Virus record (IMG/VR): IMGVR_UViG_3300024517_000130
Coordinates: 1-21,211 of that record
Strand: one strand, 5' to 3'
Source: a virus
DNA length: 21,211 bases
How positions within the stretch are numbered: the stretch's first letter is position 1; the number at the start of each line of letters is the position of its first letter. Shown piece after piece: positions 3,001 to 21,211 of this stretch. A program made the translations under genes and the position numbers. Under the pieces are notes generated by a model. The model had not been told where the DNA came from, ran no database searches, and worked only from the letters and a program-made list of their open reading frames with translations.

Positions 3001-4506
3001 GGGAGTGCTAACAAGGGTATCTTGTCCGGGTTTTGTCGGAACGTTTTCCATATCCGTTAAAAGTTTTACTACAAGGGGCTCGTTCCCCTTGATGCCGGGT
3101 ATGGACGCAAGGTAACGTGCAGCCAATCTTTGCTGACCGGGCCCAGTAAACGGTTCTATAAGGCCCCTGAACATGGGAACGCCCTGCCCTTTGGTGGCAG
3201 CGGTCACCGCCCCCATTGCTTTTGACAGGGCAAAAGGTGCGGTTAGACCGATCATCAGTTTTCCAGTGGGACCCCATTCTTCAGGGGTAATGTGAATGGC
3301 CCCTCCAGAAATGGCTGACAGCCCCAGGTCTTTCGCAATAAAAAGAGGAGTCCCCGGTATAGTAAACCGTCGCCGCGTTTTTTTACCCACCGCAAAGTCG
3401 GCACCGGGAGAGTTTGCAACAGAGTACAGGAACCGGTTCAGAGTCGTTGCATCCTGCAAATCCTCTACTTTCAGTCCTTTGGTAACGGCCTTTGCGCCCA
3501 ACCGGGAGGCCCCTGAAACCGTCAAGCTCCCGCCAAAAATGCCGCCAAAAAATGCGGCGTTCCTCTGTGCTTCTGAATCCTGTTGCGGAGTCAAAAGACC
3601 GGGTTGGCCCATGTTGACCAAAACTTCATCTAGCAGTTTTCCGGTTGCGCCGTGAAAAGGCATAAGTTCTCGGTTAGGATCAATGACAACAGCCCCTTGA
3701 TAAAGAGCATTCGGGTACTCAGTAGAGTACAAACCAAGGGCTTGACCAATTCGTGGCTTGTCTTCCAAATAAGGGCTACGTGGTTTAGGTCGTTCAAAAC
3801 CAAACAAAGACCCCACATCCCGGGCAAGGGTGTTAGTGCCAACTGGACTAAACACGTAGTCCAGCCCCCGAGCTATAAGTCCCGGCATGTCCAACATGGA
3901 TGGCAATCCAAGAAGTCCCTCGCGCGCAAAAGCCTTTGCTGCCGTCTCCGGGACAGATTCGTATTCTTTAGCCGCTTGGTATTCGTCGGGCAATACTTTT
4001 CGGACAACTTTTAACATGTTGTCCCAATCGTCTTGGGTTATTTGGTCTACCCCCTGACCCGGACGGAGGTTAAAAGTAAAAGAACGGGAACCCGGTCTTG
4101 GTGGACCTGGGAGAAACGCCCCTTCCGCCGTCATTTCCCCGTTAACCAAAGAACCAATGTTGACAGTGAAACGCTGCCTTTGGGAAGCCTCCAAAGCGGG
4201 GCTGTAACTTAGAGTACCTTGGGGATCAACCGTCTCTCCCGGGAGCAGACCCCCTGCGGGAGCTTGGGAAGGGACAAATCTTGGGTCCTCTTCTGTAATT
4301 GGTCTAATCGTTTGACCGGCGAATGTCGAAGGAGATCTCACAAAAGTTTTTATAAAAGAATTTACGACATCGTTCTTTATCAAGTCTCCTACGCTTGGGT
4401 CGGACAACATCTCATAATATGTACGATCCGATTTAGGAACATTACGGTCCCTAGCCCGGGGGTCGTTTAAGACCTGTTCATACGTTTGTTGTTGTAAAGT
4501 AGCCAT
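1..4506 (-). CDS. Giant phage virion protein, probable internal/ejection-type protein (3' end outside window)
   Basis: An uninterrupted minus-strand frame begins at the ATG at 4504-4506 and runs off the left edge after 1502 codons, so the protein is at least 1502 residues. It starts MATLQQQTYEQVLNDPRARD. It is mostly helical and charged. Moderately hydrophobic Gly-rich stretches lie near residues 315-345 and 385-435, and another near 1315-1350 (contains ITGGPALVMAGTGG). A coiled-coil-like Glu/Arg/Gln-rich part spans about 755-865 (ARARIAELEARQAEMES). After about residue 1450 the sequence becomes Pro/Ala/Gln-rich, ending PMAQGTMA at the edge. It lies 13 bases after the previous stop with no clear ribosome binding site, so it is probably translationally coupled. 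Size, helical content and position beside another giant resemble internal virion (ejection) proteins of podoviruses; that role is inferred. I see no lysozyme or transglycosylase motif. The frame being a gene is near certain; the function is not. Confidence 0.9.
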   Translation of the reverse strand, partial: MATLQQQTYEQVLNDPRARDRNVPKSDRTYYEMLSDPSVGDLIKNDVVNSFIKTFVRSPSTFAGQTIRPITEEDPRFVPSQAPAGGLLPGETVDPQGTLSYSPALEASQRQRFTVNIGSLVNGEMTAEGAFLPGPPRPGSRSFTFNLRPGQGVDQITQDDWDNMLKVVRKVLPDEYQAAKEYESVPETAAKAFAREGLLGLPSMLDMPGLIARGLDYVFSPVGTNTLARDVGSLFGFERPKPRSPYLEDKPRIGQALGLYSTEYPNALYQGAVVIDPNRELMPFHGATGKLLDEVLVNMGQPGLLTPQQDSEAQRNAAFFGGIFGGSLTVSGASRLGAKAVTKGLKVEDLQDATTLNRFLYSVANSPGADFAVGKKTRRRFTIPGTPLFIAKDLGLSAISGGAIHITPEEWGPTGKLMIGLTAPFALSKAMGAVTAATKGQGVPMFRGLIEPFTGPGQQRLAARYLASIPGIKGNEPLVVKLLTDMENVPTKPGQDTLVSTPMYFSTVSDEMGQAAQAWSALRSQGVSDIDAIAQLSQNAVYGKYINGEVPVFGNRPPSVESLKETGTALKVISDNMYGAMSWLQTGSPIKNEVLRAAGERLKVAEQVFRDLSRGFDGDPGAASAHVERSVKRLTELADDALATHATDALLYNQLKAMIDNPEALSRGQIANADRAIEGVQNAFRETREIETALWTNIGANQIEISPQNMALIGDKAAEIILSTPVAQRNQIPSILYQVAGKNRLLSDEALDSMAKAAGAVPETPAAIRNARARIAELEARQAEMESRPYQSPALAKAQRKLSQLEAELNEMGFNTSEARIDTKETQIAGQKQQISDLSGDTVDPRLIKLNDDITAQRAKLRSLEEDIVPTTTAGDERIEMGPNGILDNVDTLDEVLATRTALLNEAARAASRTGGNNSARIANDAQTYIIEDWLQNPEIFGDAGTTAAYDAARKFSADLNTRFTRGYVADYLATAADRGTKVDHNQILAKIINDNKTAPGRVPTGSLDEFDAALIEVKAPFLKREDGAFVVDPDAKLTPGLEGLTWESIRTGGPGSEKLSSQLLREEVLNQLALIAFDSTGALNPKKVQNAIRSWALPISKVEESYPGFGKEIETLATSGDELAKRHKALHNPSRRTIDEALATQNLDDLASVLDAGDIVRKIQADRSSASIFLDKDPEVVAATLFADPANFETTVAATLKILDADETGAARAGFQRAFFDELLRQTLSDPSTAGRMPGEAVLDPSQINQLLTQNETALRQIFPDRVGPWDSNMTSYDMLKIFNDEMSLGMAERAGKIAGASPHHLEKPFRGGEFVRNLGRIAGVKLATITGGPALVMAGTGGRLAGRIFESGGESAVLSLVSDALVDPSMAKLLLTETARLSKKGKLIFDKRLTQALRPYQFMAGPPTQVIRESVEQQKELDRVEREGGQQGIEYDPETNLYQRGRVGPRSSAQPVASPPQRAASDMPAPLAASALSQVNLVEPPLLAQGSAPMAQGTMA

Positions 4507-4519
4507 GTTTTCTAACCAG

Positions 4520-7500
4520 TTATTGTAGCGTGTACGATCCGTCGGATTCTAAAACTACCGGTGGAGTTATGTTTCTTCGAGCCCCGAACACTCCCAAGAA
4601 CCCTTTAAGATGCTGTCCTTGCCTTACAAATTCCTCGACGGCATCTTGGTCAGATTTGTTTGGGTACGCCTCCCGGGCCGAAGAAAGAACGCGCCTGTAA
4701 AGATTTGCGGTAGACTCTTCATCGACGTTGCCCGACATTGGAGAAATAGCTCCCCCACGGCTTCCCGGAATAATTCTTCCAGAGGCCGACTCTGCCGCTC
4801 TTTGGATAGTATCAGAGCTTCTCCGGAACAATGCAGCGGATTCCCGTGCGCGCCTTCCTTGTCTAGGATCTACGTCGCGAACCGAAGACCTTTGCAGAGC
4901 GCGAGACGTATGATCCAAATCTGTTAAGAACACCGGATCAAACACGGCGTTTAAAGAAATACCCTGATTGATTCTTCTGTTAAGTCCGTTGACATGGCGG
5001 TTTTGCAGTTCGTGCAATTTTGCAAAAGTCGTCGTATCAGAGTCTCTGTTTCCCACAAAAGCAGCCAGCAAGATCTCAATGTCCTTGTCCGAGGGCCGTG
5101 AGTCCTGAATCATGTTGAACGCACGAATCTTGTACCTGCTTAACGCACCAAGATACTCTGCGGCTCTTTCAAATTCGGTAAGACCTATACGCTGCCCCTT
5201 CTGTTTTTGGGCAGCAGATTTTTCTTTTAAAAATTTAAACACTCGTTTTTTGAGATCTAGGTCGGCGGCGTTCAACTGGTTGTCGGGCTTTGCTATGTCC
5301 GCCCATTTGTTGCTGGGCATTGCCGCGTATGTTTCTTTACCAGCGGTTCCATCATTACCGGTCCACGATTCAACAAGTTCACCCAGACCTGAACCGCGCA
5401 ACTCTGCAAGCCAAGTACCGTCAGAGAACCACGCACCGCCCTGATCCTTAAAACGTAACATTATCATACCATCCCGGAGAGCATCCGTGTCGTCCTCCAA
5501 AGCGGTCTGAAGGTTTTTAGCCTGTGCTCCTTTGCCAATATTTAACGCTGCGGCGGGTTTAAACACTTTAGCCGCTTCGTTGTATTTAGCCGTTGCTTTT
5601 TCAAAAGTTGTTCGGAATTTATTGTCATCTAATGTTATTGCGCCCTGTCCTTCGGCTACCCCAGGAAGATTCTTCCACAGACCGCTAAAGAGAAGTATTT
5701 TTTCTTCCGCATCCCCAAGGTTTCGCGTTCCTCCGTATACCTGCTCAAAAGCTTCCTTTATAGCCGAAAAATTCCTTCGTGAGTTCAAGACATCCCCGGA
5801 AGAAACAGCTTGGGTAAAACCGGGATGGCTACCGGTGCCAAGCTGTATGTTTTTGCCGCCCCTTGTCCACGGTTGAAATATGCGTGGATTAACAACCGAA
5901 CGGGTAGAACGGGCGGACCCTTCCGGAACTGTAACCATGGAATTGACGCGGGGATCTAATTGAAGAACGTCGCTCGGCACGGAAGTCACTTCTTCAGGAT
6001 TTCGTCCCATGAGTTTTCGTGCGCGGGCGTTGATTATGCTGTTAAGAGCGTCTGTACGCTCGTCTGGTTGTAAGGGAGTCAGTCTTTTAAGATCTGTCTG
6101 CGTTAAAACTTGTTCCTGGATCTTCTTCCTAACTTCTGGTTCAAGGTCAGTTCTCAGACCCACCGCAGACTTATATGCGTCGTCTAATACAGGGCGCAAG
6201 CTCTGGTACAACTTGTCGTCGGATAGAGTTTCCCAAGCCTGTTTTTGGTATTTATTTTCCAAAAACTTTCCGTCTTCTCCGATTTCTTTCCACCGGAACA
6301 CACCCGGAGACGTCTGCATCAGAACAGCTTGGATAGTCTTCTGCTTGTTGTCCTTAGTAGTTACCGTGAGTTCTTTTGCGGTCGTCCCAAAAGGCTTGCC
6401 CCCTGCGGGGAAAGGTTCTTCAATGTCCGGTTTATTTACTGTTAGTAACTCATCGGCGTCCGCTTGAGTTATGTTAACAGTTCTTCCTTTGACATCGAAC
6501 ATCGACAAACTTCGTGTCGGGTCAAGTTCGTGGACAAGACTATGCTGGTTAACGCCTTCTCCCATTTCTATGTTTTTACCAAGTATGCTTTTCGCTTTTA
6601 TAACCTGCTTTTGAGTTAAATCATTTCTGACATACAACCTTTGCGTCTTAGGTTCTTTATAGTTAGCAACATCGGTTGGAAAATAATGTGTTCCCGATAT
6701 TGGATTTACATATTTGCCGTTTTGTATAGCAACAAAACGTTGGTCACTACCTTTCCAGTACAGTTGTGGAGAGTACTGGGTCTGAGGACCCGTTTTTGTA
6801 TCTGGTATCAGTTGAACGGCTTGCATAACATCTCGTTTTACAAGTCTAGACCCACCTTCCCCGTCTGATTCAGGAACCAAAATTACTCTCGGCTCTCGTG
6901 TTGCCCCGGTGGCTTTAATTGCGGTTGCGGGCTTGCGGTACTCGCTCAACTGTTCACTAGGAACTTCTTCCAGCGTACCGTCGTTTTTAATTGAAACATA
7001 TTTTGGAAGATTTGTTAGTTTATCAACTGTAATAAAACCTAAGAAAGCACTGGTTTTACCGTCTACCGTGCGCTGTAGGTCTTTGGTTGGGGTGTAATCC
7101 CTTTGTACCAAAGACCTAGCCAGCGCGAAGCGTTTGTCTCTTGCCGCGTCTTCCTGGCCCAGACGTTGCTGAGTCATGGTTAATGCAGCTTGCGACAACC
7201 GGGCTTCGTCCGCCCTTTTAGCGGTTTTCGCTGCTCTTCGCTGCTCCATTAACCTAGTAGCAATAGGGGAAAGGTCCCCCGCAATAGGGGCCATAAGCTC
7301 TCTGGACACCGTGCTCACAGGAGATTCGCCGCGTCTTGGGGCCGCTCCCGCTGACGCGAATCCACGTTGGGCCACAGCTAAAGCCGCCTGAAACTTGGCT
7401 AGATTTGTGGCGTCCTGAAACTGCTTGTCGTAATCGACAGGACCTAATCCGGGCAAACTGGAAACCATTTGCCGTTGTTTAAGAACGCCTTCTTGCGTAA

Positions 7501-7744
7501 GTTCCGTGGGAGAAAAAACTCCCTTTTTCTTTAGTAGATCGGCTATTCCTTGGGTTTTGGCGAACGGGTCAGGCGAAGCGGTGGCGTTTAAAGTTCGGAT
7601 AAAACGATTCCGGGCATCTGCGCCGGGAGGTATTGTTAACCCAACCAGGTTACCATCTGAATCATGGATTCTACGTGTCTTATACTCCTTGAGTATCTTT
7701 GGATCAATCTGTAGGACACCGTTGCGTTGTGAAGACACTGCCAT
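4520..7744 (-). CDS. Large phage structural/internal protein, 1074 residues, function unassigned
   Basis: The chosen start is the ATG at 7742-7744 (MAVSSQRNGVLQIDPKILKE), because GGAGG lies five bases upstream; the frame stays open back to a TTG at 7823-7825, but that has no such site. Residues about 110-220 are Ala/Gln/Arg-rich helix (MEQRRAAKTAKRADEARLSQ). The middle, about 220-500, is more beta-like, with phrases such as YVNPISGTHYFPTDVANY. The C-terminal third is helical again (LSRYKIRAFNMIQDSRPSD), then Arg/Ser-rich (RRARESAALFRRSSDTIQRA). No signal peptide, membrane segment or catalytic motif is visible. It sits between a Met-rich small protein and the 1502-residue giant in a structural operon, so a tail or internal virion protein is the simplest reading. 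It could also be a tape-measure-like or scaffold component. The gene call is firm; the role is inferred from context. Confidence 0.9.
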   Translation of the reverse strand: MAVSSQRNGVLQIDPKILKEYKTRRIHDSDGNLVGLTIPPGADARNRFIRTLNATASPDPFAKTQGIADLLKKKGVFSPTELTQEGVLKQRQMVSSLPGLGPVDYDKQFQDATNLAKFQAALAVAQRGFASAGAAPRRGESPVSTVSRELMAPIAGDLSPIATRLMEQRRAAKTAKRADEARLSQAALTMTQQRLGQEDAARDKRFALARSLVQRDYTPTKDLQRTVDGKTSAFLGFITVDKLTNLPKYVSIKNDGTLEEVPSEQLSEYRKPATAIKATGATREPRVILVPESDGEGGSRLVKRDVMQAVQLIPDTKTGPQTQYSPQLYWKGSDQRFVAIQNGKYVNPISGTHYFPTDVANYKEPKTQRLYVRNDLTQKQVIKAKSILGKNIEMGEGVNQHSLVHELDPTRSLSMFDVKGRTVNITQADADELLTVNKPDIEEPFPAGGKPFGTTAKELTVTTKDNKQKTIQAVLMQTSPGVFRWKEIGEDGKFLENKYQKQAWETLSDDKLYQSLRPVLDDAYKSAVGLRTDLEPEVRKKIQEQVLTQTDLKRLTPLQPDERTDALNSIINARARKLMGRNPEEVTSVPSDVLQLDPRVNSMVTVPEGSARSTRSVVNPRIFQPWTRGGKNIQLGTGSHPGFTQAVSSGDVLNSRRNFSAIKEAFEQVYGGTRNLGDAEEKILLFSGLWKNLPGVAEGQGAITLDDNKFRTTFEKATAKYNEAAKVFKPAAALNIGKGAQAKNLQTALEDDTDALRDGMIMLRFKDQGGAWFSDGTWLAELRGSGLGELVESWTGNDGTAGKETYAAMPSNKWADIAKPDNQLNAADLDLKKRVFKFLKEKSAAQKQKGQRIGLTEFERAAEYLGALSRYKIRAFNMIQDSRPSDKDIEILLAAFVGNRDSDTTTFAKLHELQNRHVNGLNRRINQGISLNAVFDPVFLTDLDHTSRALQRSSVRDVDPRQGRRARESAALFRRSSDTIQRAAESASGRIIPGSRGGAISPMSGNVDEESTANLYRRVLSSAREAYPNKSDQDAVEEFVRQGQHLKGFLGVFGARRNITPPVVLESDGSYTLQ

Positions 7745-7749
7745 GGATA

Positions 7750-7754
7750 CCTCC
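7750..7754 (-). promoter_or_regulatory. Strong Shine-Dalgarno (GGAGG) fixing the start of the 1074-residue gene
   Basis: On the minus strand the sequence reads GGAGGTATCCATG, a consensus Shine-Dalgarno five bases before ATG. It is the best ribosome binding site in the window and decides the start at 7744 over the longer TTG-initiated frame. It is also the only gene in the window separated from its upstream neighbour by a real gap, which fits independent rather than coupled initiation. Confidence 0.75.
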
Positions 7755-7785
7755 GGTGAAGGGGCGCGCTTTTCGGGTTTATCAG

Positions 7786-7830
7786 CAATTGGGTCGAAAA
7801 TCAAACTGATCCAATTGGGAAGCAATTGGG
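7786..7830. repeat. Three direct copies of CAATTGGG (CCCAATTG on the coding strand)
   Basis: Identical octamers lie at 7786-7793, 7812-7819 and 7823-7830, spaced 26 and 11 bases start to start. Each contains the palindrome CAATTG. They fall in the only intergenic gap of the window, upstream of the 1074-residue gene. They could be protein-binding sites or a small phage-specific regulatory element, or chance. The repeats are directly visible; any role is inference. Confidence 0.55.
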
Positions 7831-8581: not shown

Positions 8582-9586
8582 CTAAAATAAGCCGCCCAGT
8601 TGTTTGGCAGCGGCTGCTGTCCCGAGAAGTCCCGTACCAACACCCGCTACCTGTTGGAAAGCAGAGGGGGTTGGAGTACTGGGGGATACCTGAGATCCAA
8701 GAACGGTTTGCGTGGAGGGTGCTCCCTTGTATATGTCGGAAAGGAAGGAAACCCGGCTGTAGGGAGCGAACAACTGGCGCTGTATGTTCCCTCTTTCTGC
8801 ATCTAGTTCGGCCTGTTGCTGGCGCTGCTGTTCCTGACCCAATTGCTGCTGAGTGGCAAGGTCTCGGACAGCGGCACTCTGGGTAAGTTGCCCCAGACCC
8901 AATTGCTGACCGGCAATTGCTGCCTGCTGACCTCCAAGGCTTCCGTACAGACCGGCGATGCCGCCAAACAACTGGGACTGGGCCTGTTGTCTGCGCTGCT
9001 GATTTTCAAAAGATGATTGTGCCGAACCTAAAGCCTGCGTGAAATTCTGTGAATTCAATTGTGCAAGGGCCCGCGCCCGGGAATCCGCTAGGTTGCGATC
9101 CAGTTCTGCCCCCTGAATTCCAAACCTGCTTCCCCCAAATGCGCCCGCCCCAACGCCCTGTGCGGCAAGCTGGTTCCGGGCTATGTCACCCTGCCTGTTT
9201 ATTTCGGCAAGAGTGGTGTCAATTACTTGCTGCTGAAAAGGGTTGGAGTAAGCCGACAGGTTTGTGGGCGAAAACAACTGTCCGCTTCCGGCAATTGCCT
9301 GCTGGGCGGAGGATATGGGGGCCTGCGCCTGACCAAGAGTAGCAAGACCCGTCCCTAAAGTTTCGCTTCCGGTTTGCAGGAAGGGCTGATAGCCTCCTAT
9401 ACCTCCGGGTCTTTGTGCTTCCGTCGCCGCTTGTTGTTGCAGACCGGAAAGACCGGCAATTTTTTGTTCGGGTAAAGTATAGGGGGCGTCACTTAAATCC
9501 TTAGCGGACCTAATAAGTCCGAGCTTCAGGGCTTCTATTTCCGGGGCTTCCCGGACAATTTGCTCCTGTATCGTTCTTTCAGGCAT
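8582..9586 (-). CDS. Gln/Ala-rich phage virion protein, 334 residues
   Basis: The gene begins at the ATG at 9584-9586, seven bases after GAGGG, and two bases past the stop of the 602-residue gene. Residues about 114-165 contain SNPFQQQVIDTTLAEINRQG, DIARNQLAAQGVGAGAFGGS, then RFGIQGAELDRNLADSR. I recognise this as a motif run of a common marine-phage structural family. The centre (about 165-270) is extremely Gln/Ala-rich and probably a long helix or coiled coil (QQQLGQEQQRQQQAELDAE). The C-terminal 40 residues are Ser/Pro then Gly/Ala-rich hydrophobic, ending AAAAKQLGGLF. There are no catalytic features. Length and composition recall small ejection or internal proteins of podoviruses, which is an analogy and not a homology claim. 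Position between the 602-residue and Met-rich proteins supports a virion role. Confidence 0.92.
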   Translation of the reverse strand: MPERTIQEQIVREAPEIEALKLGLIRSAKDLSDAPYTLPEQKIAGLSGLQQQAATEAQRPGGIGGYQPFLQTGSETLGTGLATLGQAQAPISSAQQAIAGSGQLFSPTNLSAYSNPFQQQVIDTTLAEINRQGDIARNQLAAQGVGAGAFGGSRFGIQGAELDRNLADSRARALAQLNSQNFTQALGSAQSSFENQQRRQQAQSQLFGGIAGLYGSLGGQQAAIAGQQLGLGQLTQSAAVRDLATQQQLGQEQQRQQQAELDAERGNIQRQLFAPYSRVSFLSDIYKGAPSTQTVLGSQVSPSTPTPSAFQQVAGVGTGLLGTAAAAKQLGGLF

Positions 9587-11717: not shown

Positions 11718-11884
11718 TATTCCATGAACCACGCTACGCCATTAGTGTCATCCTCTCCGCTTATCACAGAAGGGAAGTCCATTTTCGTCAAGGCCATTTC
11801 TAGATCTCTTAGGATTCTCACAAAAGTATCTACATCGTATTGATCCGGAGCCATAGGCATAGCGTGATCCAGTAACTTCGCCAT
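11717..11884 (-). CDS. Small phage protein, 55 residues, function unknown
   Basis: A short frame starts at ATG 11882-11884, with GGGAG six bases upstream, and ends with TAA at 11717-11719. It encodes MAKLLDHAMPMAPDQYDVDT, then FVRILRDLEMALTKMDFPSV and an acidic tail ending AWFME. It exactly fills the space between two larger genes, sharing a TAATG overlap with each neighbour, which together with the ribosome binding site strongly supports that it is real despite its length. It is acidic, probably helical in the middle, with no membrane segment. It could be a small chaperone or a minor virion protein; I do not recognise the family. Confidence 0.8.
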   Translation of the reverse strand: MAKLLDHAMPMAPDQYDVDTFVRILRDLEMALTKMDFPSVISGEDDTNGVAWFME

Positions 11885-14169
11885 TACCGTCTCCCGTCAG
11901 GTCTTAGACCAAGTCTGAGATCCCCCAAAGTCCATGTTATATCCGTTGTATCGCTTTCAATTCTGAGTGCAGCCTGTCTCGACCGGCTCCGTAGAAAAGC
12001 CTGCTGAGTGGAAGCTTTAACGGCATTGGTGGAGTTCGTGGCTAGACTGTCCCCAGGGTAGTTCCTTGTTTTCAGGATATAATTTACATAAGCCTCTGAA
12101 TCACTGCTCGTTATGTCTATATCGGGTATCAAACGATCCATGAACATGAACTGCTCACCATCCCCAAGATCGAAATCAGCGGACTCGATGAACGCCGTCA
12201 TAGCGGAACCATCGTCATCCTCGCCGTTTTCATGCACATAGATATAGTTTGTATCACTTTCTTGTCCGGAACCTCTTGGGTTGTTGTGAATTCCGTAGTC
12301 CACCCAAGCAGTTCGTGAAAGAGTGCCTAGATCCCATGTGTTCTCTGTATAGTTAAATTTAACGTAGCGGTCTATTTCGGACGCATCGGCGCTTGGATAG
12401 AACCAAAACACTTCGTCAAACATCCTGTTGGATGCGGCGAAGCATTTGAAATTTTGTTCCAGGTTGATATCATCAAAAACGTAACGTAGAAGAGTGCATG
12501 GAATAACCTGAACACGGCCCGTGTAGACAAAGAAGTTTTCGCGGTCCATCCAGAACACTTTGTCTCCCACAGTCGTGACGGCATTCGGTCCTACTATGGA
12601 CACATTGTTTGCCAGCATACTGATACCAAAAGTAAACGGCGGTCCTACAAAACGCATGGCATGAAGAGACGAATCCGTCCAGACAAGCATCTCTTGACGT
12701 GTTTTTTGGGCAGCAATTATCTCTGAACCAGAGGAAATTCTCTGGGAGCCCGCCGTATTAGTAGCCGTAGGAGTCCAGTCAAACGGACTTTCCTGATCGG
12801 ACCAGCGAATCATTAACAGGTCTTGGGCTGTATTTCCTATAGGATTGCATCCGAAACAGACTATATGGCGATCTGCACCAGACACCATCGTCCTTCGTGT
12901 AACGGTCGGGGAATCGGAAGCCCCTGTTTGAGAAGCGAAAGTTGTGGCCCTGTTTCCCAGGCCGAGTGTCTTATCCCAATAGTAAAGTGCGCCGTCATAA
13001 ACATTAAACGCAAGATCCTCGCCCCAGTTGTCTTGAGCCCATAGCCTAATATTTGCTCCGGATGATACAGTAGTGTCCGAGGCTCCTCCGAAGCCTATGA
13101 AATCATTAGCTTCTTTAACCCCCACACCATCATCGTGTGCCGCTGCCGTAGTCCCCCGGACTCCTCTTACAACTCCTGCATTAATTGTGTCGGATGATTT
13201 GCCCGTGTACTGAAGCAATTCATCGTCAATCATTACAAGCCCAACAAAAGTTATGGTGGCACCACTGGAAGAACTCGCCGCCGTAGTACCATCATCTCCT
13301 CGTGTTAGATCACCGAATACATTATCTACGTTGGTTCCATAGCGAATATTTTCGCTTCCTATCTTAATAGTACCCTTACTGGGGAAACCAGTCGTACTGG
13401 CCCCGGCAATAGTTGTACTGGAATCGGTGAGATTTGCTCCCGTTGTAGTAGCCGCTGTCTCAAAGTCCGTGGCACTCGTCAGGATGAAAGTTGTATCAGA
13501 ATCGCTTATTCCGCCACTATCGTTCAAAGTAGTCTGTGAATAACCTGTACTTAAACCTCCCCAAAGACCTGCTCCAAACCCATTACCCGCTACAACCGTG
13601 TCAATACCCGTATTTATTTGATAGGTGGCAACAACAGAAGAACCCCCGCCAGCAGTTGACCCGGAAGAAGCGGAACCCCCGGTCGATATTGTGTAACTGT
13701 TTGAGTCTACAAGGGTGATCTTATGCTCCGTGTTTAACTGGGCCACCGTAATTCCATCCGTGGCCGTCGCGCCGCTCAACGTGACAAAATCGCCGTTCAC
13801 GGCTCCGTGACTAGGTGCAGTAACCGTTACAATACCACTAGATGCAGATCCCGTTGTAATGGGGTTTGTCCCTAAGGTAGTCGTAGCTCTAATGGGAGTA
13901 ACATCGTTGTATCCCCCACCCTCTTCTATATAGAATTTGCTTTCTGTTCCGAGGCCCATGTACTTGGAGCCGTCCAACGCGGACCACACATGAAGAGACC
14001 GGCCCGTTCCTTGTATGGCATTGCCACTAAGACGGGTCCAGCCACCCATTTTCTCAGGGCGACCTTTGCGAAAACGAACTAGGTCAGAATTAAACCAACC
14101 ATTTTCATCTCCGTAGGATGTAGTTTCCCGGTTAACTCCTGGACGAAACTGTATCTTTGATAAGGGCAT
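11884..14169 (-). CDS. Phage virion structural protein (tail/stabilisation type), 761 residues
   Basis: The start MPLSKIQFRPGVNRETTSYG at 14167-14169 lies one base after the previous stop. The N-terminal 95 residues (GWFNSDLVRFRKGRPEKMGG, then a Trp/Gly-containing sensor-like strand pattern) are typical of a marine phage structural family often placed next to tail genes. A beta-domain insert at about 105-185 has HGAVNGDFVTLSGA and ITLVDSNSYTI. Two related loops follow: IKIGSENIRYG...LTRGDDGTTAA (about 266-297) and VMIDDELLQYTG...VVRGVRGTTAA (about 312-343). The C-terminal half contains regular Trp/Asp strand motifs (NWGEDLAFNVYDGALYYWDK and later VLVWTDSSLHAMRF-like segments), suggesting a beta-propeller-like fold. 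Phage DNA-stabilisation/tail hub proteins such as P22 gp10 play a comparable role, but homology to gp10 is not something I can show. It is coupled by TAATG to the next gene. Confidence 0.9.
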   Translation of the reverse strand: MPLSKIQFRPGVNRETTSYGDENGWFNSDLVRFRKGRPEKMGGWTRLSGNAIQGTGRSLHVWSALDGSKYMGLGTESKFYIEEGGGYNDVTPIRATTTLGTNPITTGSASSGIVTVTAPSHGAVNGDFVTLSGATATDGITVAQLNTEHKITLVDSNSYTISTGGSASSGSTAGGGSSVVATYQINTGIDTVVAGNGFGAGLWGGLSTGYSQTTLNDSGGISDSDTTFILTSATDFETAATTTGANLTDSSTTIAGASTTGFPSKGTIKIGSENIRYGTNVDNVFGDLTRGDDGTTAASSSSGATITFVGLVMIDDELLQYTGKSSDTINAGVVRGVRGTTAAAHDDGVGVKEANDFIGFGGASDTTVSSGANIRLWAQDNWGEDLAFNVYDGALYYWDKTLGLGNRATTFASQTGASDSPTVTRRTMVSGADRHIVCFGCNPIGNTAQDLLMIRWSDQESPFDWTPTATNTAGSQRISSGSEIIAAQKTRQEMLVWTDSSLHAMRFVGPPFTFGISMLANNVSIVGPNAVTTVGDKVFWMDRENFFVYTGRVQVIPCTLLRYVFDDINLEQNFKCFAASNRMFDEVFWFYPSADASEIDRYVKFNYTENTWDLGTLSRTAWVDYGIHNNPRGSGQESDTNYIYVHENGEDDDGSAMTAFIESADFDLGDGEQFMFMDRLIPDIDITSSDSEAYVNYILKTRNYPGDSLATNSTNAVKASTQQAFLRSRSRQAALRIESDTTDITWTLGDLRLGLRPDGRR
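11891..11895 (-). promoter_or_regulatory. Shine-Dalgarno (GGGAG) for the 55-residue gene
   Basis: On the minus strand GGGAGACGGTAATG places GGGAG six bases before the ATG at 11884, inside the last codons of the 761-residue gene. It supports independent initiation of a gene too short for most length filters. Confidence 0.65.
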
Positions 14170-14339: not shown

Positions 14340-14852
14340 CTATGGCCGTCTTTCTTCAGACTCTAGTTCGGGCCAATCGCCCAGATCGTCACTGTCAAGT
14401 AATGTTGCCATCGCTGCTGTATCGGCAGCACTGTCTATTGCCGCCTCCATCGCAGTAGCTTTAGTTCGTATTGCGTCTCTCCAAGTTTGCACATTAGCAG
14501 GTATAGCCGTGCTGTTATCTGCTTTGCGTATAACCATCCAATCTGTTTGACTCAATAATGCGCCTTGTTGGTGCTTAACGGCCTGCTTGAGTTCAAACCT
14601 AACGCCTCTCACCACATTATCGCCGGACCCTGAATCTGCGAGAGGTTTATCGGTACTATTTATTGTACCATCAGGATTTTGCGTCCAAATATATAATCGA
14701 TCATCCGGTGGAGATTGCGGAATAACCTCAAGCAGTCCAGCGGCTTTTTTATCCTCTGGAGACCACAGGTTCCATTGAGGCGACTGGTTAATGCCATTGT
14801 CATCGATCCAAGAGTGGCCTTCTCTTACAACCCTGCTTCCATATTTAAACAT
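14340..14852 (-). CDS. Phage protein of tail-fibre-assembly type, 170 residues
   Basis: The start at 14850-14852 follows AAGGTAGGG on the coding strand and lies 27 bases after the LamG protein's stop. The N-terminal half is rich in Trp and Pro (SWIDDNGINQSPQWNLWSPE, then LYIWTQNPDGT). The C-terminal part reads LLSQTDWMVIRKADNSTAIP, then a helical run WRDAIRTKATAMEAAIDSA and an acidic tail. The TDWMVIR-adjacent helix arrangement resembles the C-terminal region of phage tail-fibre assembly chaperone-like and DUF4376-style proteins, which are commonly encoded next to fibre genes; I cannot verify the family here. Its place directly after two adhesin-like genes supports that. It may alternatively be a small fibre-associated structural protein. 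Confidence 0.85.
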   Translation of the reverse strand: MFKYGSRVVREGHSWIDDNGINQSPQWNLWSPEDKKAAGLLEVIPQSPPDDRLYIWTQNPDGTINSTDKPLADSGSGDNVVRGVRFELKQAVKHQQGALLSQTDWMVIRKADNSTAIPANVQTWRDAIRTKATAMEAAIDSAADTAAMATLLDSDDLGDWPELESEERRP

Positions 14853-14879: not shown

Positions 14880-17132
14880 TTATTGTCTCGCATTGGATGT
14901 TTTAAAGGGAAATGTAGCAAAAGCCGCATAAAGATAAATGTACCCAGATGTATTTTTATCCGCGTCAGATGTTCTAACCTTAAAACCGTTCGATAGAAAA
15001 TCAATGGCTCTACCCGAACTGTCAAATTCGGCTGCGGCAGCGTTCGCATCTATCTGAGTATTCACTACGTTATAAGGACTTCTTGTTACATCCTCTATCC
15101 CCCAATAACCGCTGCTTCCAGTACTATCTTTTATCATCACCCAAGCAGGTGACATGCCCGGAGTATGCACCATGGGGCCGTCTGCTGTACCGCTTCCCGT
15201 ATAATATCCAAACGAACTAAATCCCCAGACCTCCGCAAAAAGGTAGGCTATATAGTCTTCAGTATTGGTGTTGACTTCCACCCCTGTGCCAAGGCTGAAC
15301 ACACTACTTGTGGGGGCGGTGTCATTCCAGCGATCAGCGGAATCAACCGCTGCTGCTGTAGTATTTAGAACCATATAATCCGTTTGTGGGTCACCTGTCT
15401 GACCGGATAAACCTGCATGATAAACCTGCCACGCATCAGCCTGATCCCGGTTCTTCACGATAATCATCTTGGGAACGGCGGATAACGAATGTGAAATCGT
15501 TCTTGCTGACCCGTTACCTGTATAACTAACTATATCAAAACCTGGGGCTGCTCCCTCCAACCATTGCCAAGCAACAAAATTTCCTGTGTTGGTATTGACC
15601 TTGGAATCGGCTCCCAGACTAAAACCATCGCTGTCAAAACCCGTTAGGGTGTCTGCATCTGTTGTTTCTGCTGTCGTGGCATCAGAACTTAAAACCTTTG
15701 TGGCCCCTCTCACACTATCCGTAAGAACATGTGAGGACGATGCATTGCGATACTTGATCCAGACAAGATCCGGTTCAAAGGTCTTATTTCCGCTTTGATC
15801 TATTGATTGTGTGCTACCGTTTCCGGTATATGTTGTTGTTTGAAAGGAAGAACTACTGTTGACAACAGCACTGTCATCAAGATTGGCTGCACACGAAGCA
15901 AGAAATCCACTGGGGGGCGCATAGTAAAAATCTCCCTGATCGTTACCGTCAGCATTATTTTGTGCCGTCTTCTCCCCGGCAAAGCTGGAATCCTGTCCAA
16001 AGTTTGCCGTGTAGTTCTCGGCGACCGGTGGGCACATTCCAAACACATATTCCCCCGCCGTTATATTATAGGTTGGATCAGTACCATTGGCGGGATCCCC
16101 GGCGGAACCACCAGATGGTGTGTGCCAAGTATTATTCTTCCCTACCCACAGTTTGTTGTTATCTATATCGATGGCTAGTTGATAAATATCTCCGGTAGCA
16201 CCGTCGCCAAAGGACGTTACTGTTTGCGTTCCATTGGTATATACTCCATTCCCAGAATATAACCCATAACCCAAGCCATACCCTGAGGTCGTATATCCAA
16301 TGTAATACCCCCAATTTACCGCTGTTAAATCATTGATACGATGGACAGCAATTGGAAAACCGTTCGAACCGGTATGATTAACTTCCAAGGACTCTGCATA
16401 CCACTTGCCACTAGTCATTGGAAATGTTGCAAGCGCAGTGTACCAATAGCTTGAAGTTCCTACGCCTTTCAGATTTCCTTCCTGTAAGATCTGACTTGCT
16501 TGCTTGTCCGTGAAACTTAACGTGCAGTAATTATTGGTAGGTGTATCGATAAGCTGATCGGTGGCAGCAATGTTTGTTGCCGTCCAATCGGAACCGCTGC
16601 CGCTGTTTTCCCCCATGGCAGAACTGTTCGAGAACGTCAGGTACATTTCTCCGCCAGACTTCTCTTTCGGAATCCATTGACCCGTCGTACCGCTTGTTTC
16701 CCCGAAGTCTGTAACAGCCGTAGTGCCTGTTCTCAGGTGAACATCTGCAGCGTACCCGTCAAAATCATCAAATAGTTTTGCGTTGCTAAGATCAGTAGTT
16801 GTACAGGAACCAACGCTCACGCCATTCACGTAAATTCCATTATTGGATGCGTATACGTGATACCAGCCACCGGAGTCTCTATAGAGCGCTGTCGTACTTG
16901 TTCCCTCGACCTCCAAGGTATCATCAGAGTTGAAATGAATTTCACCACCGGATGCGCCTAAGATTAAACTTTCCGCACTGAGCTTGGACCGTTTTATCCA
17001 GGCACTGAATGTCCAGGGTTCAGACAAGGTGTAGGTCAAGGATAGTTCTGCGCTGACACCAAACCGACAGGATTGGTCTATCTCAAAGACCCCGCCACCA
17101 GAACCAAACTGTGTCGTACCAAATACAGGCAT
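14880..17132 (-). CDS. LamG-containing phage adhesin/tail protein, 750 residues
   Basis: The ATG at 17130-17132 overlaps the previous TAA (TAATG), with GAAGG about ten bases upstream. Residues about 20-155 look like a laminin-G/concanavalin-A jellyroll (SEPWTFSAWIKRSKLSAESL, then DSGGWYHVYASNNGIYVNGV). A linker ends IAATDQLIDTPTNNYC (about 188-203). Residues about 225-385 resemble a SPRY-like domain (SGKWYAESLEVNHTG, GDIYQLAIDIDNNKLWVGKN). From about 434 to 745 there are three related units (TYTGNGST..., SYTGNGSA..., GYYTGSGT...) that each end in a GF/FSLG/V.T-type strand; I associate these with the DUF7483-type phage domain. Such proteins are usually receptor- or glycan-binding tail components on the virion surface. 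Domain assignment is by eye from motif pattern, and binding targets are unknown. Confidence 0.9.
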   Translation of the reverse strand: MPVFGTTQFGSGGGVFEIDQSCRFGVSAELSLTYTLSEPWTFSAWIKRSKLSAESLILGASGGEIHFNSDDTLEVEGTSTTALYRDSGGWYHVYASNNGIYVNGVSVGSCTTTDLSNAKLFDDFDGYAADVHLRTGTTAVTDFGETSGTTGQWIPKEKSGGEMYLTFSNSSAMGENSGSGSDWTATNIAATDQLIDTPTNNYCTLSFTDKQASQILQEGNLKGVGTSSYWYTALATFPMTSGKWYAESLEVNHTGSNGFPIAVHRINDLTAVNWGYYIGYTTSGYGLGYGLYSGNGVYTNGTQTVTSFGDGATGDIYQLAIDIDNNKLWVGKNNTWHTPSGGSAGDPANGTDPTYNITAGEYVFGMCPPVAENYTANFGQDSSFAGEKTAQNNADGNDQGDFYYAPPSGFLASCAANLDDSAVVNSSSSFQTTTYTGNGSTQSIDQSGNKTFEPDLVWIKYRNASSSHVLTDSVRGATKVLSSDATTAETTDADTLTGFDSDGFSLGADSKVNTNTGNFVAWQWLEGAAPGFDIVSYTGNGSARTISHSLSAVPKMIIVKNRDQADAWQVYHAGLSGQTGDPQTDYMVLNTTAAAVDSADRWNDTAPTSSVFSLGTGVEVNTNTEDYIAYLFAEVWGFSSFGYYTGSGTADGPMVHTPGMSPAWVMIKDSTGSSGYWGIEDVTRSPYNVVNTQIDANAAAAEFDSSGRAIDFLSNGFKVRTSDADKNTSGYIYLYAAFATFPFKTSNARQ

Positions 17133-18532
17133 TAGCTAAAAGCCTTCTGTACTGCACCAAGTTGAATAGACGCCGAAGCCTTTACAAAATACGGGATAAT
17201 ATCAACAGCACTTGCTGCGGTACTCAATGTAATGCCAGAACCTCCCGCAGTCTCGTAATCGGTACCAAGACTTAACGTTCTAGAACCCGTACCGTCCTGG
17301 ATACAAACGATAACACCGGATTGGCCTACCTGCTCAGTCGAAGGGTTGACGAGCGTTACATTCCCCGTAAAGGTCAATACAAAATTTTGGTTGGCTCCGA
17401 AATCTAGGGTTACATCACCTGTGTTCGAAGTGTCCGTATCCGTAGTGGCTATGAGCGTACCGGTGACCGTAGTGCCAACAGAAGTCGTAGCAACCTTCAC
17501 CCCGTTATTAAAATAAAGGGAAACAGCGCCATCATCGACAAAGGTAGCAAGGGTCTCTGACGTACCCAGAATGTCTACCTGATTACCACTCCCAATCTTT
17601 AGATTCCCCGTTCCATTGTCCGTAATGTAGGAATTAGATGCGTCATGATACAATTGGAGATCGCCACCGGCCCCAAGCTCAATCTTGGCATCATCGGGGA
17701 AACGAAGATCGTCAGTCCCGGTAGGAACTCCGCAAACTTCAGCATCGGCATCATTTTTTATGGTGATATCGTTGGTTGATCCTTGTCCTGTTAGGATAAG
17801 ACCTTCTACCGAGGTATACCCCATCGTCGCATTATCCCCGGCGGACGTATCGCCATCGGCATTAACCGTAGCTGCCGTAACATCTCCAACGATATCTACA
17901 TTAGTCGCACCTGTTGCTATTGTAATTACGTCTGCATCAGCGTCATTTTTTATGGTGACATCGTTAGTGGACCCCTGACCCGTCAGGATAAGCCCTTCCG
18001 CCGCCGTGTACCCAACTGCGGCTTTATCCCCGGAAGCAGTATCTCCTGAAGGGTTAAAAGTTCCAAGAGCCAGATTTGATACAGCATCAAAAACTGCCGC
18101 GCCAGAACCCGCACCATCCATATAGACGATTGCAGAGTTACCGTTCTCCACCGTTATATTGGCACCACTTCCCTGAGTCAGGATAACAGAATACGGACCA
18201 CTGGATCCTGAATCCGTCGTGGCGTTAATAATTATGAAAAATACTTTTGCTGTATTCGGGGCGACAGTAACCGTACAGTTTGAATCCAAAGCCCCTGTGA
18301 ATTTAATCACACGGTACATTCCGTTCTGAAGGTTCTCGGTTCCTGATCCAGGGGAGGCTTCCCTGACAGTAAGGGTAGCCGTATCTGCATTTGTTGTTAT
18401 GGCAACAGAAGTATATGCCGCAATACGATCTATAATATCCCAGTTGTGGTTACTCGTTGTACCCCACGCACCGGACTGTTCCCCGGTAGCTATTTTTTCA
18501 ATTCCGAGACTTGTCGAATATGTTGAAGCCAT
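17132..18532 (-). CDS. Phage tail-fibre-like protein, 466 residues
   Basis: The start MASTYSTSLGIEKIATGEQS (18530-18532) lies 10 bases after the repeat protein's stop, with AGGAA about seven bases upstream. The first 150 residues include GAWGTTSNHNWDIIDRI, a typical marine-phage fibre N-terminus that probably attaches to the tail. The middle holds two near-identical modules, GYTAAEGLILTGQGSTNDVT (about 174-193) and GYTSVEGLILTGQGSTNDIT (about 238-257). These are followed by DLQLYHDASNSYITDNGTGN (about 291-310) and ETLATFVDDGAVSLYFNNG. I recognise this series as the common beta-rich fibre modules of marine phages. The C-terminus has a TGNVTLVNPSTEQVGQSGVI terminal module. It probably forms a trimeric fibre with its C-terminal end exposed to the host. 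It overlaps the LamG gene by one base. Confidence 0.92.
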   Translation of the reverse strand: MASTYSTSLGIEKIATGEQSGAWGTTSNHNWDIIDRIAAYTSVAITTNADTATLTVREASPGSGTENLQNGMYRVIKFTGALDSNCTVTVAPNTAKVFFIIINATTDSGSSGPYSVILTQGSGANITVENGNSAIVYMDGAGSGAAVFDAVSNLALGTFNPSGDTASGDKAAVGYTAAEGLILTGQGSTNDVTIKNDADADVITIATGATNVDIVGDVTAATVNADGDTSAGDNATMGYTSVEGLILTGQGSTNDITIKNDADAEVCGVPTGTDDLRFPDDAKIELGAGGDLQLYHDASNSYITDNGTGNLKIGSGNQVDILGTSETLATFVDDGAVSLYFNNGVKVATTSVGTTVTGTLIATTDTDTSNTGDVTLDFGANQNFVLTFTGNVTLVNPSTEQVGQSGVIVCIQDGTGSRTLSLGTDYETAGGSGITLSTAASAVDIIPYFVKASASIQLGAVQKAFS

Positions 18533-18542
18533 AATCCTATTC

Positions 18543-21211
18543 CTATGCCGCTATTTTTAACCAATCGGGCGTCTGGGAGGTGCCCATCTCTGACCAATCG
18601 GCTGTCTGTGATGCATCAACCGTTGACCAATTTGCTGTCTGCGATGCATCAACCAATGACCAATCTGGCGTCTGCGATGCATCAACCAATGACCAATCTG
18701 GCGTCTGTGAGGCATCAATTATACCCCATACATTAACATTGGATATAGCGCCCGTGGCGGATACGCCTGTAGCATCAACGGATACACCACCCGTAACAGT
18801 CGCCGTGCCAACCGCGCCCGTCCCGGAAACGCCCGTAACGGTAACATCAACTCCTTCACCGACCGAAACGGTGCCAATCGCGCCCGTGCCGGAAACGCCC
18901 GTAACGGTGACACCAATCCCTTCGCCAATCGTAACGGTGCCAACCGCACCCGTGCCCGAAACACCCGTAACGGCGACAATACTTTCACCGCCAACTGTAA
19001 CGGTGCCAACCGCACCCGTGCCCGAAACACCCGTAACGGTGACATCAACTCCCTGTGTAACCGAAACGGAGACGGTGCCAATCGAACCCGTCCCGGCAAC
19101 ACCCGAAACGGTGACACCAATCCCTTCGCCAATCGTAACGGTGCCAACCGCACCCGTGCCCGAAACACCCGTAATGGTGACAATACTTTCACCGGAAACC
19201 GTGACGGTGCCAATCGAGCCCGTGCCCGAAACACCCGAAACGGTGACAATACTTTCACCGGCAACCGTGACGGTGCCAATCGCGCCCGTACCGGCAACGC
19301 CCGTAACGGTGACACCAATCCCTTCGCCAACTGTAACGATGCCAATCGAGCCGGTACCGGCAACACCCGAAACGGTGACACCAATCCCTTCGCCAACTGT
19401 AACGATGCCAATCGAGCCGGTACCGGCAACACCCGAAACGGTAACATCAACTCCCTGTGTAACCGAAACGGTAACGGTGCCAATCGCGCCCGTGCCCGAA
19501 ACGCCCGAAACGGTGACGTTAACATCCTGACTAACCGAAACGGTAACGGTACCAATCGAGCCCGTACCGGCAACACCCGAAACGGTAACACCAACTCCTT
19601 CCCCGACCGAAACGGTGCCAATCGAGCCCGTTCCGGCAACACCTGAGAGAGTAACAATACTTTCACCGGCAACCGTGACAGTGCCAATCGAGCCCGTACC
19701 CGCGACTCCCGTAACGGTGACATCAACCCCTTCGCCAACCGTGACGGTGCCAATCGAACCCGTGCCCGCAACACCCGTAACGGTAACACCAACCCCTTCA
19801 CCGACCGTAACGGTACCAATTGCACCCGTTCCGGCGACTCCCGTAACGGTGACAATACTTTCACCGGAAACTGTAACGGTGCCAATCGAGCCCGTGCCCG
19901 CAACACCCGTAACGGTGACATCGACTCCTTCACCGACCGTAACGGTAACGGTACCAATCGCGCCCGTCCCAGCAACGCCCGTGACGGTGACACCAACTCC
20001 TTCACCGACCGTGACGGTGCCAATTGCGCCCGTTCCGGCGACTCCCGTGACGGTGACACCAACTCCTTCGCCAACTGTAACGGTGCCAACCGCACCCGTT
20101 CCGGCGACTCCCGTGACGGTGACACCAACTCCCTCACCAACCGTGACGGTGCCAACCGCTCCCGTCCCGGCGACTCCCGTAACGGTAACCGATATATTTC
20201 CTTCTGTACTAACCGTGACGGTGCCAACCGCTCCCGTCCCGGCAACACCCGTGACGGTGACACCAACTCCTTCACCAACCGTAACGGTGCCAACCGCGCC
20301 CGTTCCGGCGACTCCCGAAACGGTGACAATGCTTCCACCGGAAACTGAAACAGTACCAACCGCTCCCGTCCCAGCAACGCCCGTGACGACAACAACAATG
20401 CTTCCTGCTGTACTAACCGTGACGGTGCCAATTGCGCCCGTCCCGGCAACACCGGATAGTGTGACAATACTTTCACCGGCAACCGAAACAGTGCCAATTG
20501 CGCCCGTCCCGGTGACACCGGATAGTGTGACAATACTTTCACCGGCAACCGAAACAGTGCCAACAGCACCCGTTCCGGCGACTCCCGTGACGGTAACACC
20601 GACCCCTTCGCCAACCGAAACAGTACCGACCGCGCCCGTGCCCGAAACACCCGTGACGGTAACCGATATATTTCCTTCTGTACTAACCGTGACGGTGCCA
20701 ACAGCACCCGTCCCGGTGACACCCGTAACGGTGACACCGACCCCTTCACCGACCGTAACGGTGCCAATAGATCCCGTCCCAGCAACGCCCGTAACGGTGA
20801 CAATACTTTCACCGGCAACTGTAACAGTGCCAACAGCACCCGTCCCGGTGACACCCGTAACGGTGACACCAACACCTTCGCCAACCGTGACGGTGCCAAT
20901 AGATCCCGTCCCAGCAACGCCCGTAACGGTGACAATACTTTCACCGGCAACTGTAACAGTGCCAACAGCACCCGTCCCGGAAACGCCCGTAACGGTAACC
21001 CCAACTCCCTCTCCAACCGTGACGGTGCCAATAGCACCCGTCCCGGAAACGCCCGAGACAGTAACAGTAACACCTTCGCCAACAGTGACGGTGCCCGCAG
21101 CACCCGTCCCGGAAACGCCCGTGACGGTAACCCCAACTCCCTCTCCAACCGTGACGGTGCCAATAGCACCCGTCCCGGAAACGCCCGTAACGGTAACCCC
21201 AACTCCATCTC
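18543..21211 (-). CDS. Giant Gly/Val/Thr repeat protein with SQTPDW C-terminal repeats (5' end outside window)
   Basis: This frame is open from the right edge (889 codons including the TAG at 18543-18545) with no internal stop in my codon-by-codon reading. It has no Met codon except one near the C-terminus. Most of it is 37 copies of a unit such as VTVTGVSGTGAIGTVTV with linkers GEGVG, AGESI, STEGNIS and similar, about 22 residues each. It ends with five 11-residue repeats of the form DASQTPDWSLV, then LKIAA. Synonymous third-position variation between copies is high in this frame. The stop lies 10 bases before the fibre gene, matching the tight operon packing. The protein is likely a long beta-rich fibre or surface protein of the virion; its N-terminal end is unseen. 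Similar valine/threonine-glycine repeats with W/SQTP tails occur in marine phages I know of, but the role is inferred. Confidence 0.85.
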   Translation of the reverse strand, partial: DGVGVTVTGVSGTGAIGTVTVGEGVGVTVTGVSGTGAAGTVTVGEGVTVTVSGVSGTGAIGTVTVGEGVGVTVTGVSGTGAVGTVTVAGESIVTVTGVAGTGSIGTVTVGEGVGVTVTGVTGTGAVGTVTVAGESIVTVTGVAGTGSIGTVTVGEGVGVTVTGVTGTGAVGTVTVSTEGNISVTVTGVSGTGAVGTVSVGEGVGVTVTGVAGTGAVGTVSVAGESIVTLSGVTGTGAIGTVSVAGESIVTLSGVAGTGAIGTVTVSTAGSIVVVVTGVAGTGAVGTVSVSGGSIVTVSGVAGTGAVGTVTVGEGVGVTVTGVAGTGAVGTVTVSTEGNISVTVTGVAGTGAVGTVTVGEGVGVTVTGVAGTGAVGTVTVGEGVGVTVTGVAGTGAIGTVTVGEGVGVTVTGVAGTGAIGTVTVTVGEGVDVTVTGVAGTGSIGTVTVSGESIVTVTGVAGTGAIGTVTVGEGVGVTVTGVAGTGSIGTVTVGEGVDVTVTGVAGTGSIGTVTVAGESIVTLSGVAGTGSIGTVSVGEGVGVTVSGVAGTGSIGTVTVSVSQDVNVTVSGVSGTGAIGTVTVSVTQGVDVTVSGVAGTGSIGIVTVGEGIGVTVSGVAGTGSIGIVTVGEGIGVTVTGVAGTGAIGTVTVAGESIVTVSGVSGTGSIGTVTVSGESIVTITGVSGTGAVGTVTIGEGIGVTVSGVAGTGSIGTVSVSVTQGVDVTVTGVSGTGAVGTVTVGGESIVAVTGVSGTGAVGTVTIGEGIGVTVTGVSGTGAIGTVSVGEGVDVTVTGVSGTGAVGTATVTGGVSVDATGVSATGAISNVNVWGIIDASQTPDWSLVDASQTPDWSLVDASQTANWSTVDASQTADWSEMGTSQTPDWLKIAA
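18552..18716. repeat. 33-bp repeats encoding five DASQTPDWSLV units
   Basis: Five consecutive 11-residue units (consensus D-A-S-Q-T-P-D-W-S-x-V) cover this stretch. Two adjacent 33-base copies (18641-18673 and 18674-18706) are identical. The last unit begins G-T-S rather than D-A-S and is followed by a short basic end. The pattern of one Trp and one Gln-Thr per 11 residues suggests a regular structural spacing. Confidence 0.9.
18738..21211. repeat. 37 tandem copies of a roughly 66-bp (22-residue) Gly/Val/Thr unit, continuing past the edge
   Basis: I counted 37 occurrences of the core that encodes G-V-x-G-T-G-x-x-G-T-V, with a period usually of 66 bases and sometimes 72. The repeats differ mostly at third codon positions, and the short linkers between cores fall into a few classes (GEGVG/GEGIG, AGESI/SGESI, SVTQGVD, STEGNIS, STAGSI). 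The array is cut by the right edge. It is a protein-coding tandem repeat, not a CRISPR array. Confidence 0.9.
19311..19442. repeat. Exact 66-bp tandem duplication inside the repeat gene
   Basis: Bases 19311-19376 and 19377-19442 are identical by my reading. The rest of the array is diverged, so this marks a recent unit duplication. A second case is a 91-base identity between 20758-20848 and 20890-20980, offset by two repeat units. Confidence 0.8.

Follow-up and report, generated by a model that had tools for sequence, protein, structure and literature searches.

A beta-repeat gene cut off at the edge of a viral record is the longest sampled member of a phage protein family and may encode a solenoid spacer rod

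The window analysed here (21,211 nucleotides, the entire IMG/VR record IMGVR_UViG_3300024517_000130) ends at its right edge inside a gene for a repetitive protein. Judging from the sequences compared, repeat expansion has gone furthest in this gene among the sampled members of a large, unnamed protein family of the virion module. It starts with an ATG, and its product most likely forms a solenoid spacer rod of the tail-fibre module, a reading held with reasonable confidence.

The 3′ part of the gene occupies positions 18543..21209 on the minus strand as an open frame of 888 codons that runs off the right edge. A recount agreed with the preliminary description on every sequence detail it gave of this frame. 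Glycine, valine, threonine, serine, alanine, isoleucine and glutamate make up 841 of the 888 residues (95%). The frame is nearly free of methionine, with a single in-frame ATG at codon 875. None of its 220 valine codons is GTG, CTG does not occur and TTG is found twice, at codons 841 and 852 within the C-terminal part. The repeat array (18768..21209) has 37 unit starts, comprising 36 full units of 22 or 24 residues and a last degenerate one, with a partial unit at the edge; the consensus is GV(S/A)GTGA(I/V)GTVTVGEGVGVTVT. The C-terminal 60-odd residues (18543..18735, NVWGIIDASQTPDWSLV...) are a repeat of a different type, with five 11-residue QTxxW units of the DASQTPDWSLV kind and a final AA, an ending that is kept in relatives. 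The ATG of the next gene (18532) lies 10 bases past the stop codon.

The frame had been considered start-less and likely to be dropped by gene finders. Instead, it is the 3′ 83% of an ATG-started gene, and its start is missing from the window because the record ends inside the gene. The extension past position 21211, which had been suggested as a check, was provided by L002, an overlapping record of the same virus (overlap 6450 nt). As anticipated, the protein is longer than the record shows: L002 has an ordinary ATG at position 8312, 182 codons upstream of the window frame, and encodes 1070 aa with 43 unit starts. Over the repeat gene and the next gene, L002 and the window are the same save for one base, located 5 nt from the record's edge, and L008 backs the same 5′ end with 99.98% identity across 8777 nt. 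There is no stop or frameshift across the 1070 codons and a start lies within reach, so neither of the findings named beforehand as damaging to the gene occurred. The number of 43 units is an assembly estimate, since short-read assemblies break at repeat arrays; three records (the window, L003 and L008) stop within this one. Past the window's right edge, the start region carries a 13-bp direct duplication (L002:8299-8325) containing ATGGCGTTTACTG twice. The first ATG overlaps the stop codon of the previous gene and gives an out-of-frame peptide of 8 codons, and the second (L002:8312), as read from the sequence, opens the long frame.

The array is also open in the +1 frame (829 codons) and in two antisense frames (316 and 532 aa), so that openness alone is weak evidence that the claimed frame is coding. 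Long open frames over the array in the window are located at 18580-19530 (plus), 19615-21210 (plus) and 18719-21208 (minus). Pairwise differences among the 34 complete 22-residue units of L002 were therefore sorted by codon position and effect. Differences at third positions numbered 9.4, versus 3.9 and 2.8 at the other two, and 55% of inter-unit differences were synonymous in the claimed frame, whereas the two remaining sense frames gave 6% and 4%. The antisense frame sharing the same third positions reached 52%, as expected from geometry; the sense frame is preferred to it because of homology, gene order and both termini. Homologues down to 39-46% identity retain the frame, its ends and the gene order, and the relative L004 keeps no long +1 frame. 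Among 465 codons aligned between the window and L003, 130 differ synonymously and 59 non-synonymously. On this evidence the claimed frame is coding, and the substitution pattern indicates that the repeat gene is under purifying selection. The +1 frame was rejected as a gene, since unit variation read in either alternative sense frame is 94-96% non-synonymous and L004 lacks a long +1 frame. Rather than being genes, the long antisense and +1 frames are side effects of codon bias and of a repeated unit without stops.

The neighbours of the repeat gene are structural genes, in line with the earlier placement of a repeat-rich beta protein in a phage tail or fibre operon. Those given here with window coordinates are all on the minus strand. 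The next gene (17132..18532, 466 aa) encodes a fibre-like protein with the N-terminus GIEKxATGEQSGxWG (phrog_31104), and is followed by genes for a tail fibre or virion protein with a DUF7483 domain (14880..17132) and for a tail fibre assembly protein recognised by a weak match (phrog_4912, 14340..14852). A virion structural protein of the P22 gp10-like packaged-DNA stabilization type (11884..14169), whose relatives are annotated as stabilization proteins, and a DNA ejection protein (phrog_4287, 8582..9586) are encoded further on. A major head protein (phrog_371), a tail protein (phrog_2941/10775) and phrog_644 also belong to the operon neighbours. This set of neighbours, with the DNA ejection protein in support, points to a short-tailed member of Caudoviricetes. 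Annotated relatives of the stabilization protein include those of Pelagibacter phage HTVC023P, Roseobacter phage CRP-902 and the lake phage DSL-LC04.

The family was gathered from IMG/VR with the window, then L004 and then an alignment as queries. At least 562 relatives were found among the 600 matched stretches listed. The loci fetched contain 86 distinct complete members of 231-1070 aa (median 302), and the gene described here, complete in L002, is the longest of them; a relative of 955 aa exists in another phage. The dominant unit spacing is 22, and the family unit pattern, G-[hydrophobic]-x-[GA]-T-G-x-V-G-[ST]-V-x-V..., fits the window gene. The usual plan consists of a Trp-Gly N-terminal motif, the 22-residue repeats and C-terminal QTPxW 11-mers. 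Most members start with a GWGRGxWGxGxW-like or MFGFFPFSxAPFSxLG-like sequence and end with QTPxW-type 11-mers and (I/V)AA; the window gene has the same type of 11-mers and an AA end. The WG motif GWGRGTWGEGAWGE is internal in L002, at about residue 57, behind a different leader that is peculiar to the window lineage. L004 and L010 have no WG motif, which is usual and not universal.

The gene order is conserved as well. Downstream neighbours of 86 members fall into one homologous cluster (GTWG N-terminus, phrog_31104), and the window gene, as nearly all members, stands directly upstream of such a fibre gene. Upstream neighbours fall into the phrog_644 cluster in 74 cases, a placement that is usual without defining the family; in L002 the phrog_644 gene (5776-6231) is two genes up, with a gene for 614 aa in between. 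The same order recurs in contigs binned into bacterial or archaeal MAGs, and these contigs look like phage. Several relatives carry inserted beta domains on the presumed rod. The insert of the member at L007:9959-11170 is cupredoxin-like (HPFFLQT...YYVCQYHSNMGN) and has a related domain in cyanophage tail-fibre-like proteins. Other long members (L058, L061, L105 and L115, 545-828 aa) have extra non-repeat segments, which in L058 and L061 show weak MAM-like and cupin-like matches.

No Pfam, PHROGs or NCBIfam model matches the repeat, and a sub-threshold Pfam match of the QTPxW tail to Spt5-CTD was not accepted. A tblastn search of INPHARED with the repeat part gave no match, and the low-complexity filter probably masks the repeat; with P0004, the best 40 of 337 records all fall on the inserted domain. 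Sequence searches of the PDB returned only internalins at chance level (E 0.05-0.2), and a literature search revealed nothing relevant on this repeat or on curli-like phage fibres. The family thus stands beside fibre genes in hundreds of viral contigs without a Pfam, PHROG or NCBIfam model, and a name for it would supply the annotation of a dark gene that recurs in aquatic phages.

The AlphaFold modelling that had been proposed as a check was conducted with AF2 on the last 329 aa of the window protein (residues 560-888). It predicted regular strand pairs, two per unit, with pLDDT mostly 80-92 over the repeats until the last units; the QTPxW tail is unstructured in the model (pLDDT about 30). 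The model of a 297-aa relative is similar and less confident. Foldseek found nothing below E 1 in the PDB and one significant viral model, that of an uncharacterised phage protein. In VIA-align comparisons, the top match of the window model was the curli protein CsgA (8c50; Z 24.1, 268 residues aligned, with a high rmsd of 8.4 Å). The same structure was the top match of the relative (Z 22.5, 253 aligned, rmsd 8.5 Å), and it outranks other solenoids for both models. AF2 is known to give confident but unrealistic beta-solenoids for near-perfect repeats, the mark of which is stacked internal charges, whereas diverged repeat families, including Pfam PF07012, are modelled consistently by all methods (PMC11795689). 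Across 820 distinct units of the family, positions 2, 8, 11, 13, 19 and 21 are occupied by V, I, L, M or F in 77-97% of cases and by charged residues in at most 1%. The near charge-free core argues against an AF2 artefact without excluding one, and the repeats probably fold as a beta-solenoid with two strands per unit. At a rise of 4.8 Å per repeat (PMC10192328), 43 units folded as modelled would measure about 21 nm, and the approximately 10 units of most relatives about 5 nm. Modelling thus agrees with a beta fold and does not support the giant length, or very long fibre, that had been suggested; the family probably forms a short, stiff rod of adjustable length and not a giant fibre.

The likeness to CsgA (R15.5 of Pontibacter korlensis, 8c50) lies in strand-turn-strand units stacked into a two-sheeted beta-solenoid, which for the phage protein is a model. 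The phage family differs from CsgA in having a core of Val/Ile and Gly, in being encoded in a phage structural operon without curli genes and in that evidence of polymerisation pertains to CsgA and not to the phage protein. The curlin Pfam signature gave no match for the window protein at E up to 1 or for relatives at 0.1, and the context of a csg secretion operon is absent, the neighbours being phage structural genes. Closer counterparts are found among phages. The 376-aa 'hypothetical protein' WJZ48131.1 of the metagenome-assembled lake phage DSL-LC04 (PMC10611076) has WG motifs, 22-residue repeats and QxxxW repeats ending in IAA, as the family does, but only about 8 units versus 43 and different downstream fibre genes. 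The sole isolate member found, gp53 of Roseobacter phage CRP-902 (L040:5964-6890), combines 22-residue repeats with a WG motif in a structural operon, upstream of phrog_644 and phrog_31104; unlike the window gene, it has only about 5 units, fused behind an N-terminal phrog_28581 domain. The viral model found with Foldseek is A0A6J5P871 (BFVD, uncultured Caudovirales phage, 324 aa, uncharacterised), with E 2.3e-8, TM 0.66 and 31% identity over the model. Right-handed beta-helix tailspikes (Sf6, 2vbe) are likewise elongated beta-solenoid virion proteins, and 2vbe reached a VIA Z of 14.6 with the model of the relative. Tailspikes of phages, however, are trimeric, with enzymatic clefts and some three strands to a rung, whereas this family is modelled with two strands in each 22-residue unit, and no catalytic domain was seen in it.

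In the favoured reading, each 22-residue unit would form two short beta-strands with Val/Ile pointing inwards, Thr/Ser outwards and Gly-rich turns, and the units, stacked rung upon rung, would build a thin beta-solenoid rod with two sheets. Docking would likely fall to the two ends: the N-terminal segment, which has Trp-Gly motifs in most members and its own leader in the window lineage, and the QTPxW 11-mers at the C-terminus. Alongside the fibre from the next gene, the rod would then most likely serve the tail-fibre apparatus as a spacer or adaptor, and unit number would set its length, from about 7 units in the shortest members to 43 here. We infer the presence of the protein in the virion, as well as the spacer and docking roles, from these features. 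Should the solenoid model prove right, the virion module would contain a curli-like rod whose length is tuned by repeat number, an evolvable spacer.

Several other explanations were considered. The protein could itself be a thin tail fibre, with a homotrimeric shaft of the beta-spiral or intertwined beta-helix kind known from phage needles and adenovirus-type fibres. Gly/Val-rich repeats of short period are typical of trimeric shafts too, and the gene adjoins fibre genes; we nevertheless regard this as unlikely, as the model shows the monomer, at fair to high confidence, as a two-sheet solenoid complete in itself and the dominant period is 22 with two strands per unit. Rather unlikelier still is a decoration of the head or neck, acting as a surface display rod or adhesive outside the tail-fibre apparatus. 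Head genes in the same operon, neighbours that are PHROG head-and-packaging proteins and inserts resembling display domains in several members would suit it, but the tightly spaced downstream neighbour is fibre-like in nearly all members and the L007 insert is shared with the cyanophage proteins mentioned above.

The solenoid itself might be an AF2 artefact and the protein a largely unstructured, low-complexity linker, as the strong composition bias and the AF2 bias towards repeats (PMC11795689) would allow. The alternation of hydrophobic and polar residues is, however, kept in the 820 distinct units, the core is nearly charge-free, unlike in artefacts, and diverged repeat families are those modelled consistently by all methods (PMC11795689), so we give this explanation little credence. 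An assembly or sequencing artefact, with no intact gene in existence, is highly improbable. The ends of three records within the array would fit it; against it, the separate records L002 and L008 agree, the 1070 codons are uninterrupted, divergence is biased to synonymous changes and the 955-aa relative comes from another phage. The solenoid spacer rod accordingly remains the preferred reading.

The absence of GTG noted in the preliminary description is true of the window frame and reflects a codon-specific depletion throughout the family. In the window lineage, GTG accounts for 0 of 260 Val codons versus 18% in the other genes of the window. Codon counts in 72 non-redundant family genes and their neighbouring genes gave a GTG share of 8.9% of Val, compared with 18.2% in the next gene, 24.4% in the previous one and 16.7-24.9% further off. 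GTG was rarer than in neighbours at 63 of 67 loci (Wilcoxon p ~1e-11, with units and loci not fully independent). TTG made up 10.7% of Leu versus 17.7-25.7% (Fisher p ~2e-7 against downstream genes), so that both in-frame codons are about halved family-wide. A regex-based 'fibre' control, which had only 105 Val codons and low GTG, was replaced by the fuller next-gene control. CTG is not depleted in the family, Val third bases are otherwise well mixed, out-of-frame GTG (GGT before G) is not avoided and the depletion is independent of unit position. A general avoidance of G-ending codons was rejected, as Thr, Ser, Gly and Pro codons ending in G are unchanged and those of Ala slightly lower. Upstream SD-like motifs (no difference), the next base (effect in all four contexts) and beta-strand context (20.9% GTG for neighbour Val in alternating context) were also rejected as causes. 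Avoidance of internal initiation is the simplest reading: in-frame GTG and TTG, with Met near absent, may have been actively purged because ribosomes starting inside the array would make shortened rods of wrong length. This proposal is tentative and loses weight in that the depletion does not depend on SD-like motifs. If true, the start-less look would be a selected feature of length-critical repeat genes, extreme in this lineage. The specific depletion of in-frame GTG and TTG would offer a simple case in which to test for selection against translation starting within a gene.

Two very large proteins (1502+ and 1101 aa) are encoded at 1-4506 and 4520-7825 of the window, on the minus strand. 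They occupy the position of internal virion or DNA transfer proteins and have no significant Pfam or PHROG match. In the DUF7483 fibre gene, a 252-base block (16144-16395, minus strand) holds 61 of the 64 differences between the window and L002; apart from this block, the two match exactly over 4.8 kb save at the edge. The differences in the block show no adenine bias, and the block reads as a local allele exchange in a fibre domain of one virus population.
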